Below, one piece after another: positions 29,869-36,528 of a stretch of DNA of 64,000 nucleotides. How positions within the stretch are numbered: the first letter of the stretch is position 1; every line of letters begins with the position of its first letter. The notes beneath the pieces are model-generated. The model searched no databases. It saw only the letters and a list, made by a program, of their open reading frames with translations, and was not told the origin of the DNA. Origin of the DNA: Methanomicrobium antiquum (GTDB lineage: Archaea > Halobacteriota > Methanomicrobia > Methanomicrobiales > Methanomicrobiaceae); assembly GCF_029633915.1 (NCBI RefSeq), contig NZ_CP091092.1, positions 1,240,001 to 1,304,000 of the forward strand, read 5' to 3'. The position numbers and the translations under genes are program-made.

Positions 29869-29960
29869 GTGAAATTCTGATTTTTGGGATAATAAGATCT
29901 GGTTTTCATAACAAAATTTATTCATATCCACACCCTTTTTTTTAGATCCTTGCCCTTTTC

Positions 29961-30060
29961 TTTCTGTACTTACCCTTTTCTTTCTGTACTTACCCTTTTC
30001 TTTCTGTACTTACCCTTTTCTTTCTGTACTTACCCTTTTCTTTCTGTACTTACCCTTTTT
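29961..30060. repeat. Tandem array of a 20-bp unit, five perfect copies
   Basis: The unit TTTCTGTACTTACCCTTTTC is repeated exactly five times with a 20-bp period; degenerate half-units flank it (about 29932-29960 and 30061-30076). It ends 258 bases before the ParA-like gene. There are no spacers, so it is not a CRISPR array. Iteron-like arrays near parA genes can act as partition sites, which is only a suggestion here. The rest of the 570-bp spacer holds repeat copy F and A/T-rich DNA. Confidence 0.9.
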
Positions 30061-30317
30061 CTCCTTATACTTACCCGAAATTCCGAAATATTCAGGATTT
30101 GCTATTCCAAAGTTTTAATTCTGTAAAATTTACATAAACGGGTGATAAAAACGATAAAAATAATTTCATTTGACATAAACTATGGATTTCGCCAGATTTT
30201 TTTTGTAATCATTTTTAAAAAAGTCCGGAATTTGTATTGATTAATCTTCGATTAATCTTCGTTATCTTTTTTAGCATAACAAACTATAGAGATAAATGAA
30301 TAAAGGATGGTGATTTT

Positions 30318-31160
30318 ATAACAGTAATTACTTTTGCACATCATAAAGGAGGTACCGGAAAAACAACCTCATGCCTCAGCATTGCAGGCTGTCTTTTAAA
30401 GAGCAATGAAAAATTACTGATAATTGACTGTGATCCACAGGCCAATGCTACAACAGGCCTTGGAGTTGACCCTGAAAAACAGTCAAAAAACATGTATGAT
30501 GTTTTCATGAATGTTTTTGAAGGGTTTCCTGATATCTCATTAAAAGATGTAATTATAAAAACATCATCAGGAATTGATCTTGCACCATCCTCACTGGACC
30601 TTGTTGGAGTTGAACCTTACCTTTATAGTATAAATGAGAGGGCTTTCGTCTTAAAAGAGGCAATAAAGCCGCTTTTGAATGAATACAGATATATCTTGAT
30701 AGACACTCCTCCTAGTATGGGTCAGTTTGTGATAAACGGACTTATAGCAGCAGACAGAATTGTTTTGACTCTTGATGAAAGTATCTTCGCTCAAAAGGGC
30801 CTTGAAAGCTTAAATTACATCTTTGAGGACATAAAAGAAAATACAGGAAAAAATAAATCACCAGACATGGCAATTTTCACTCGCGCAGGAACACTACATC
30901 AAAGAAAATCTCCAATGGAAGAGATAAAAAGTGCATTCAAACAATTGTTTTCATCCAAAAATCCGGATGATACTGAAAAAAAGCGTCAGGATGAACTTGA
31001 GGCAGAAGTAAAAAAGATGATTAAGGAAGTATATTCTGTCCCATATGACCCGGAGATATACAGAGCCCAAAAAGAAGGAATGCCTGTTACAAATATCTCG
31101 CCTGAGAGTCCGGCCTCACAAAAATACAGAGAAATTTCTGAAATAATTAAAAAGTGGTGA
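30318..31160 (+). CDS. ParA/MinD-family ATPase, apparent AUA start
   Basis: A 280-residue ParA-like protein: deviant Walker A in FAHHKGGTGKTT, LLIIDCDPQANATTGLG, Walker B-like YILIDTPPS and the VLTLDESIFAQKGLE switch region. ParA ATPases position DNA or protein cargo. No ATG, GTG or TTG occurs in frame between the TGA at 30297 and the Walker A, and the first ATG (30492) lies well past it. ATA at 30318 sits five bases after GGTG, the best ribosome site, so I take ATA as start. The stop is 6 bases before the chemoreceptor gene, so they form an operon; by analogy with PpfA-TlpT, it may place that receptor cluster. Confidence 0.82.
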   Translation: MTVITFAHHKGGTGKTTSCLSIAGCLLKSNEKLLIIDCDPQANATTGLGVDPEKQSKNMYDVFMNVFEGFPDISLKDVIIKTSSGIDLAPSSLDLVGVEPYLYSINERAFVLKEAIKPLLNEYRYILIDTPPSMGQFVINGLIAADRIVLTLDESIFAQKGLESLNYIFEDIKENTGKNKSPDMAIFTRAGTLHQRKSPMEEIKSAFKQLFSSKNPDDTEKKRQDELEAEVKKMIKEVYSVPYDPEIYRAQKEGMPVTNISPESPASQKYREISEIIKKW

Positions 31161-31166
31161 TGAAAA

Positions 31167-34121
31167 ATGGCAGATGAAAAAATAAAACAAAACAGACCCG
31201 GAAGAAAAGCTCTTTTCACCGGCGCGGCAATCCCAAAAGAAGTACAATCACTCTCTGCTGATGAAAAGGTCTCTGAATTCATTTCAAAAACCACAGAAAT
31301 TTTAAGAGATTATACCTCAGGAAACCAGGGCGCAAGATTAGAGAATGACCAAAAAGACGAAAAACTGTCTGGTCTTGCAATAGAAATAAACAGACTGCTT
31401 GAAAATTACGAGTCAGACCTGGAAAAAATTAAATCTTCTGATATAATATCCGACAATCAAAACATAATAATTTCAGAAGATTCTCAAAATTTAAAAGATT
31501 CAGAGGAATTTTTAAAAGAATTAAAAGATGTTCAGATAATGGCAGAGGAATACAGGGAAGCTGTTTTTGAAAAGGAAAAATTAATCGAAGAATATCAAAA
31601 AATTATTGAAGATAACAAAAAAACAATTGAAATTTTAAAACCAGATCTTGAAATATATGAAACTGAAAATGAGAAATTAAAATCAATAATTCAGCAAAAC
31701 GAAAACAAAATAATTGACTTAAATAAAGAAATAAGCGATTTGAAAGAAGAAATTGTCGTTTTTAAAGAGAGTGAAAACAACTCTGAAACATCAAAATATG
31801 AAGAAGAAATAAAATCCTTAAATGAAGAAATAATCACTCTTAAAGAATTAAACCAGAGACTTTCAAAAAATGTTGAGGAAAATGATGATGAATTTGAAAA
31901 GCTCCGGCAAAAGTACGAAGAGGAGATAAAAACTGCCACTGAGAAAGCATATCTTGATGCTGAAAACAAAACTTCTGAAAAAATAAAAATTTTTGAGGCA
32001 GAAACAGAAAATTTAAATCTTCTAATTCTTAAGAAGGAAGATATTGTCTCAGAGATGATATCAGAGCTTAATTCAAAAGAAAATATTTTGAACGAATATA
32101 AATCAAAACTCTCTGAACATGAAAATATTCTTCAAAAAGAAAAAACTGCCCTTTCTGAAAAAGACAAAGTCATTGCCGAACTAAAAGACGAAATTCAAAA
32201 AGTAATAACAGACACAAAAACTGACTCAGAAGAGGAAGAAAAACGACTAAAAATTATAGAAACATTAAAGAAACGCTCAGAGACAATTGTTCAGCAAAAC
32301 CCAATGCCGATAATTCTTGTAAATTCTTCATATAACATAATTGTTGCAAACAAGGCTTATGAAGATATGGCCGGAATCTCTGTTAATGATGCAAAAAGAA
32401 TGAATCTTCGCGACTTTGAGATTCTTGAAAAATCAGGGGACGGCATATCCAAAGTTCTTAAAACAGGTAAAAGAAGTCTTTCTGAATTAAAGATTAAACT
32501 ACCGGCAGGAATACGCTTCCTGAAACAGTACGGTATTCCAATAAGAAAAAACGGCCAGGTTTCTGAAATTCTAATTGTTTATGTCGATATAACCCATGAG
32601 ATGAATAAGGCCGAAGAGATAAAATCCCAGATGAAAGAGATTGATGTCTTGAAAAAACGCTCAGAGACAATTGTTCAGCAAAACCCGATGCCGATAATTC
32701 TCCTAAGTAAAAATCTTGATATTTTAGTCTCAAACAATTCATTTGAGAAGATAAGCGGAATTGAAAGACATGCGCTTTTAAAGATGAATTTAAAAGACTT
32801 CATATTTGAAGATAAAAAAGGCGATGATATCTCTACTGTTTTCTCATCCAAAAAGCGCTCATATGGAGAGGTTTCATTCAAAACTCCCCTTGAAACTCAC
32901 GTCCTTGAACAATACGCAATTCCCATAATGGACGAGAAAGAGAATATCTCAACCGTTCTTGTCGTTTACAACGAAATAACCAGGCTTAGGAAGAATGAAA
33001 AAGACCTTCAGGAATTAATGGAGAAGGTACAAAAAGAAGCAGTCTGTCTTGAAGAAAGTGCTAAAGAGATAACATCCGGCATGCTTGAACTTGCAGACAA
33101 AAATCTCAATATCAGATCAAAAATTTCAGATAACGATCCTCTAAAGATTCTGAAGGAAAATTTCAACAATTCTGTTCTGTCAATAAAAGAGTTAATCCGC
33201 GATATTGCATCAAAAACAGATAATATTGAAGAAACAGCTGACGGACTTTTCAAAAATAACGAAAGTATCTCAGATGCCGCTCAAAAAATGGCACAAAATG
33301 CATATGAGTCTTTCGACTTTACAGAAGACCTCACAAAACATTTTGAAAAAATCAGCAATGGCATTTCTGATCTTTCAGCATCAATAGAAGAAATTTCAAG
33401 TACTACTCAGGATGTCATGCAAAAAACACTTTATGCGGAGAAAGAAGGTAGGGAAGCGGCCGCAATAGGAAAAGAAGCATTTGACAAGATGGAGGCTGTT
33501 GGAGAAATTTCCAAGAAGAGTGTTCAGGAAATTAATTCTCTCAATTATGAGATAGAAAAAATCAACGATATTGTAAAATTAATCAACGGAATCGCAGAAC
33601 AAACAAATATGCTTGCATTGAATGCCGCAATTGAAGCGGCACGCGCAGGAGAAAACGGAAGAGGATTTGCTGTTGTCGCAGGAGAAGTAAAGAATCTTGC
33701 AGGGGAATCCAAAAAAGCAACACTGCAGATACAGGAATTAATCACAAGTATCCAGAAGAACAGTCAGAATACTACCGATTCAATGCACCATGTTGATGAA
33801 GAGATAAAAGTTGGAATCAAGAGTACAAATGCGGCGATTGAAGCATTAAACAAAATTGTTGAGGAGATAGTAGTTGCATCAGGCAGTATGACTGAAATCT
33901 CCAAGGCAACTGATATACAGGCACAGGAGACAAATGTCTTTATGCAGCTTGTTGATGCCGCAAATGAAATCAACAGGGAAAACAAAAAACGAACAGAAAA
34001 TATTACAGCATTAGCAGAGGAGATTTCATCAACAACAGATGAAGTAGGAGAAATATCAAATTCAATGCATGAAATGTCTATAGAATTAAAAGATGCAATG
34101 AATAAATTCAGAATTGAATGA
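31167..34121 (+). CDS. Cytoplasmic methyl-accepting chemotaxis protein with two PAS domains
   Basis: A 984-residue soluble receptor, with no membrane segment. Order: a short basic N-terminus ([15 protein letters not shown]), a long coiled coil (about 45-370, rich in Glu/Lys), PAS domain 1 (about 372-490), PAS domain 2 (about 495-610), a HAMP-like linker, then the MCP signalling domain (about 690-984) with the hairpin tip [21 protein letters not shown] and [13 protein letters not shown] near 810-840. It should signal to CheA/CheW. The start ATG lies behind GGTGATG and follows the ParA-like gene by 6 bases. The N-terminal basic stretch could bind the ParA partner (inference). Confidence 0.92.
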
Positions 34122-35709: not shown

Positions 35710-36528
35710 ATTAGATTTGTGCTGGTCGCAAGGCCTGATGATGAAAAAGCTCTAAGCCTTGCAGACGAATTGTCCATATTTTTAGAAGAGCGCGGTCACA
35801 GCATAATCTGTGAGAATAAAACATCTATAGCACTGGGAAATGGTGATGGTATAGATATTTCATCCTTAAAAGGGGATGCCGCAGTAGTTATCGGAGGAGA
35901 CGGAACAGTCCTTCATACTGTAAGACAGCTTGAAAACCAGATTCCAATAATAGGAATCAACAGAGGGCGCGTTGGATTCTTAACCGATATCGAACCTGAA
36001 GAAGCCAAAGAATATCTCCTTAAAATCGAGGCAGGAAATTATGCAATCGAAAAGAGAATGCGCCTTTCACTGAGTGTTGATGGTGAATACATTGGCCAAG
36101 CATTAAACGAGGCTGTAATTGTCTCATCGCGGCCTGCAAAAATCCTTCAGCTGACAATAAATATCGACCATGTTCCGGCTGAAAGATTCAGGGCAGACGG
36201 AGTCATTATAAGCACTGCGACTGGTTCAACCGGATATGCGATGAGTGCCGGCGGTCCGATTGTTGACCCGTGGATAGACGGCTTTTTAATAGTTCCTCTT
36301 GCACCTTATTATCTCTCATCACGACCGCATTTAATCAGCAGTAAAAGAAGATTAAGAGTTGAACTTGACAGCACAAAACCGGCGGATTTGGTTGTTGACG
36401 GCCAGCATATAATGGAAGTTTTCAACGGCAATGTCCTTTCGATTGAAAAATCACAAAAACCTGCACTCTTTATTAACGCCGGTAAAAATTTCTTTGCAAA
36501 AGTTGACAGCAAATTAAAAACCCTTTAA
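35710..36528 (+). CDS. nadK: NAD kinase, apparent AUU start
   Basis: NAD kinase makes NADP from NAD. Family motifs: GGDGTVLHTVRQL near 60, INRGRVGFLTDI near 81, and TGSTGYAMSAGGPIVDP near 170. The expected N-terminal strand RFVLVARPDDEKAL starts right after ATT 35710, which lies five bases after the GGTG ribosome site; an in-frame TGA precedes it at 35698. The only canonical alternative, GTG 35719, would remove part of this strand and lies 15 bases past GGTG. I therefore choose ATT. The downstream partner of suhB. Confidence 0.88.
   Translation: MRFVLVARPDDEKALSLADELSIFLEERGHSIICENKTSIALGNGDGIDISSLKGDAAVVIGGDGTVLHTVRQLENQIPIIGINRGRVGFLTDIEPEEAKEYLLKIEAGNYAIEKRMRLSLSVDGEYIGQALNEAVIVSSRPAKILQLTINIDHVPAERFRADGVIISTATGSTGYAMSAGGPIVDPWIDGFLIVPLAPYYLSSRPHLISSKRRLRVELDSTKPADLVVDGQHIMEVFNGNVLSIEKSQKPALFINAGKNFFAKVDSKLKTL

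Follow-up and report, generated by a model that had tools for sequence, protein, structure and literature searches.

The question raised by this locus is where translation of a parA-like gene begins. The gene lies in a window of 64,000 nucleotides (the whole stretch of DNA that was analysed) from Methanomicrobium antiquum, whose genome is one contig of 2,438,126 bases. When the sequence, its translation and the list of open reading frames were read together, no ATG, GTG or TTG was found in the ParA frame from the stop TGA at 30297-30299 up to 30492, and a start at the ATG there would cost the protein its Walker A motif. After the stop, the frame reads IKDGDF-ITVITFAHHKGGTGKTTSC; the codons between TGA and the ATA at 30318-30320 read IKDGDF, and ATA opens ITVITFAHHKGGTGKTT. 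GGTG (30309-30312) is located five bases ahead of this ATA. Farther upstream, the intergenic region contains a 20-bp tandem repeat of CTTACCCTTTTCTTTCTGTA in 5.6 copies (29949-30059 of the window).

The protein carries the deviant Walker A motif KGGTGKT and matched PF13614 (E=8.8e-46) and PF01656 (E=5.7e-16) in Pfam, and ParA/Soj proteins in the PDB were matched down to 2e-28. Both marks of the ParA/MinD deviant Walker A ATPases, KGGxGK[T/S] and an AAA_31/CbiA domain, are thus present. Translation from ATA begins where ParA/MinD proteins begin. Indeed, comparison with the PDB placed residue 3 opposite residues 3-5 in several ParA/MinD chains of solved structure, and therefore the predicted N-terminus is native-like. 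The original prediction, made from the sequence alone, had claimed that no canonical start exists between the TGA and 30492, past Walker A, that ATA lies five bases after GGTG in the same layout as ATT of nadK, and that translation from ATA gives the expected ParA N-terminus; all three claims held. A plasmid origin of the gene was considered and rejected, the best listed plasmid ParAs being only 28-34% identical.

Table 1. Features at the parA locus and other genes with apparent near-cognate starts. Prefixed coordinates refer to the sequences so labelled in the analysis.
Feature	Position	Strand	Basis or remark
In-frame stop TGA upstream of parA	30297..30299	+	no ATG/GTG/TTG between TGA and ATA
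Shine-Dalgarno (SD)-like GGTGAT	30309..30314	+	5 nt from GGTG end to ATA
ATA start codon of parA	30318..30320	+	translation and orthologue comparison
parA-like CDS, 280 aa, AAA_31/CbiA, deviant Walker A KGGTGKT	30318..31160	+	Pfam, PDB ParA/Soj matches, alignment
First canonical in-frame start, ATG, past Walker A	30492..30494	+	rejected as parA start
GGTGAT overlapping parA stop, likely SD of chemoreceptor gene (ATG 31167)	31156..31161	+	sequence, SD comparison
Stop TGA of parA	31158-31160	+	counted within CDS 30318..31160
Chemoreceptor, PAS-PAS-HAMP-MCPsignal, canonical ATG start, likely operon partner of parA	31167..34121	+	ORF list, Pfam, orthologous loci
RPGRKALF motif, chemoreceptor N-terminus	31194..31217	+	kept in most orthologous operons
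nadK, start ATT 35710-35712	35710..36528	+	sequence, Pfam, relatives
REC-PAS response regulator, ATT start behind AAGGAGG	L121:17025-17816	-	relatives compared
trpF, ATT start behind GGAGG	L320:8819-9385	-	relatives compared
METTL5-like methyltransferase, ATC start	L315:1386-1982	+	relatives compared
FAD-synthase-like nucleotidyltransferase, ACG start directly after TAA	L314:790-1230	+	relatives compared
Membrane PAS-kinase-like gene, apparent ATA start behind AGGAGGT	L315:10285-11841	-	sequence

Orthologues of parA were collected from 60 relatives, a phylum-wide sample and loci with organism names, which gave 57 from Methanomicrobiales; the scan of named loci returned mostly bacterial ParA and added only eight archaeal loci. 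The original prediction proposed checking the orthologues for ATG at this codon. Most lack it: in 48 of the 57 the corresponding position, likewise preceded by a similar SD, holds a near-cognate codon (AUU 35, AUA 8, AUC 4 and ACG 1), so that the AUA belongs to a set in which AUU is commonest. A sequencing error and a start at 30492 are therefore removed, and the AUA start is supported, without proteomic proof of the N-terminus. The other nine orthologues have AUG, and the weak start is therefore not essential. In 28 of the 57, the frame is free of canonical start codons all the way from the stop upstream to the Walker lysine. A GTG lies three codons upstream in twelve Methanoculleus-type rows, and a TTG one codon downstream in three rows; these are ambiguous, and therefore only the 28 are fully forced. 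In the finished genome of Methanoplanus petrolearius (G007; 2,843,290 bases, PMC3035365) and in G013, TGA stands immediately 5' of ATT. Two sister genomes (L073 and L074) share an identical nearest leader, GGTGATATC, which is followed by ATA in one and ATG in the other. The more distant Methanophagales orthologues have ATG near this position.

GGTG precedes the start codon by 5-7 nt in 42 of the 57 orthologues, and in 51 the second residue is T, S or P, from which removal of the initiator Met is probable. Among 43 distinct AUH starts (H being A, C or U), 31 were AUU, compared with 11 expected from the Ile codon usage of the same parA genes. In GC-rich parA genes the start was ATT in 23, ATA in 5 and ATC in 3, compared with 398 ATC, 132 ATT and 83 ATA among Ile codons. 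This over-use of AUU argues that the position is not an internal Ile codon. Furthermore, the SD match was longer in non-AUG than in AUG orthologues (mean 5.0 vs 3.9; Mann-Whitney p 0.003). Neither this test nor the start-codon counts or the codon-usage test was corrected for phylogeny. On an IQ-TREE tree, the AUG/non-AUG split needs 4 changes and all start codons together need 15. With no canonical start available in the 28 fully forced rows and a near-cognate codon at a conserved place behind an SD, parA qualifies by sequence as a conserved near-cognate start of the infC type, initiation at the codon being inferred. Sequence comparison shows where the start lies, that its codon is near-cognate and that this state is conserved across Methanomicrobiales.

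Other genes of this genome were surveyed in a sample of 864 kb (~35% of the genome), in which 712 genes were called by dicodon score. AUH or ACG starts were apparent in about seven of them (~1%), namely parA, nadK, trpF and genes for a REC-PAS regulator, a membrane PAS-kinase, a METTL5-like methyltransferase and a FAD-synthase-like nucleotidyltransferase. Two more AUH candidates, L136 and L135, were dropped, a later ATG being plausible in each. The leader of nadK is GGTGATTTT, followed by ATT in the same layout as GGTG and ATA of parA, and its SD shares bases with the stop codon of the preceding gene; the start is ATC and ATA in two relatives of the same genus and ATG or GTG in other relatives. 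The REC-PAS regulator likewise has a near-cognate start in two relatives of the same genus, ATT in one and ATA in the other, and starts with ATG in the Methanoplanus petrolearius genome. The ATT start of trpF was found in four species including this one, the three further species spanning two genera; a second trpF-like gene with a canonical start is also present. The METTL5-like gene, whose name rests on N-terminal resemblance without a family match, has ATC, ATA or ATT in five species (ATC here, ATA and ATT in relatives of the same genus), TTG in one relative and possibly CTG in another genus. The ACG of the nucleotidyltransferase was seen only in this genome among those compared, relatives having ATG, TTG or GTG. 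For the membrane PAS-kinase, tblastn in the relatives matched C-terminal parts only and gave no orthologue informative for the start. These comparisons suggest that near-cognate starts are a minor but recurring habit of this genome. The original statement that AUA initiation is very rare thus holds in general; here the parA start is no one-off.

No special component of the initiation machinery was identified. An extra initiator-like tRNA reading AUH was rejected, since the anticodons in the sampled genome stretches are ordinary (three Met-CAU and one Ile-GAU). A duplicate aIF1 was also rejected, each genome with a match carrying one copy of the factor. At the parA start, neither an unusual RNA structure (z = 0.08) nor an Rfam family, apart from a sub-threshold chance match, was detected. 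One tRNA-Met(CAU) gene, in L284, has an apparent intron adjoining the anticodon.

The gene following parA encodes a chemoreceptor in which Pfam found no transmembrane family. The pair, together with an RPGRKALF-like motif, recurs in most orthologous loci, Methanophagales included, and the downstream MCP start was canonical in all 51 operons where the MCP could be located. ParA thus stands beside a predicted cytoplasmic chemoreceptor without ParB in the pair, which is the PpfA-type arrangement, and most orthologous loci are alike. By analogy, the two proteins could be a cluster-positioning pair resembling PpfA/TlpT, nucleoid binding and cluster segregation being inferred. The RPGRKALF motif might be a tail contacting ParA, an inference made without contact data.

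From these comparisons, without proteomic or ribosome-profiling data, ATA 30318 is very likely the genuine start of parA, and the weakness of the codon is very likely conserved across Methanomicrobiales. In the mechanism that we consider most likely, the good SD GGTGAT on the mRNA would place AUA in the P site, where the ordinary initiator Met-tRNA (CAU) would pair with two of the three bases, reducing the rate of initiation. ParA would begin Met-Thr, with the inferred initiating Met probably removed. parA would consequently be translated less than the adjacent AUG-started chemoreceptor gene. The weakness of the codon may be maintained by selection because it would limit the amount of ParA relative to that of the receptor cluster, which ParA would position much as PpfA does with TlpT. 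The dosage role taken by itself, in which the weak start holds ParA low relative to the receptor, is an inference to which we give slightly less than even credence, and the ParA:receptor ratio is unmeasured.

Among the alternatives, general tolerance is a possible one. It agrees on the parA start codon and differs on the reason for its retention: ribosomes of this lineage would accept AUH and ACG fairly well, and weak starts would drift in and last almost neutrally without any regulatory role at parA. The ~7 of 712 sampled genes with apparent AUH/ACG starts support it, as do the several starts common to relatives (trpF, METTL5-like, nadK and REC-PAS). Against it, the parA state has been kept order-wide although a single substitution would produce AUG and codon changes of other kinds are common, and AUU is specifically favoured. 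Selection is therefore favoured by the order-wide persistence and the AUU preference; the choice between selected, neutral and factor-tuned retention is not settled by sequence. Tuning of AUH starts by an aIF1-like fidelity factor or by growth state, in the way that IF3 acts on infC and sigR, appears unlikely. Control by a fidelity factor does operate in bacteria (PMC5472188) and Sulfolobus aIF1 is stated to discriminate against non-canonical starts (PMC6237735); however, the single-copy aIF1, the lack of a common function among the AUH/ACG genes and the absence of an unusual RNA structure or Rfam family at the parA start speak against such control.

The remaining explanations concern the start itself. 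A mini-ORF beginning at ATG 30307 (MVIL, stop TAA 30319-30321) overlaps the ATA, and reinitiation or a frame shift might be imagined. The same overlap exists in the source genome, G004 and G006, but it is not kept in other genera, where the distance to the stop varies widely, and in L177 the 40 nt upstream are free of start codons in all three frames; we regard this coupling as very unlikely. A sequencing error, a pseudogene or a true start at 30492 would fit the general rarity of starts other than AUG, GUG and UUG. These are all but excluded by the intact frame of 280 codons, by the same state in independent genomes, some of them finished, and by the loss of Walker A from 30492. A bolder extension of the preferred reading is that AUU and AUA are retained in Methanomicrobiales as deliberately weak starts, possibly under the control of a factor, and that the output of a small gene set (~1% here) depends on initiation fidelity; the ParA linked to the chemoreceptor would be the most ancient and best conserved of these genes. 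We consider this unlikely.

As far as the searched literature shows, a weak start conserved across an archaeal order would be the first conserved AUH start in archaea: no precedent for an order-wide one was found in that literature, whose coverage excluded most subscription papers and all preprints. Gene finders usually permit only AUG, GUG and UUG, and AUH/ACG-started genes will therefore probably be overlooked or given truncated annotations. These genes form a natural set for in vivo tests of start-codon discrimination by archaeal aIF1 and aIF2, and the weak start of parA offers a testable idea of restraint on ParA dosage in the ParA-chemoreceptor pair.

Parallels are known from several systems. 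infC, encoding IF3, starts with AUU in Escherichia coli and AUC in Streptomyces, and resembles parA in having an evolutionarily kept AUH start with weak initiation (PMC5472188). In contrast to parA, which encodes no translation factor, infC is a bacterial gene under autoregulation, and its product is itself the fidelity factor; archaea use aIF1. sigR of Streptomyces also combines a non-canonical start (GTC in 32 of 34 species) with a strong RBS and is usually misannotated (PMC5472188), but its GUC/GUU start is IF3-repressed and conserved at the genus level, whereas that of parA is AUH, archaeal and conserved at the order level. Within archaea, an ATT start was inferred from the N-terminus and RBS for the tubulin gene atubA of Kariarchaeaceae, an Asgard archaeon (PMC13394414); this is a single gene, inferred only, with no conservation shown. 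With regard to function, the orphan ParA of Rhodobacter sphaeroides, PpfA, acts with TlpT in segregating clusters of cytoplasmic chemoreceptors, and the likeness lies in an orphan ParA working with a cytoplasmic chemoreceptor without an adjacent ParB (PMC2829493, PMC9178275). The archaeal ParA differs in being paired with one receptor gene, with no che operon in the stretch read, and the pair has a conserved RPGRKALF tail and an AUH start; the parallel is drawn from gene arrangement and inferred function.
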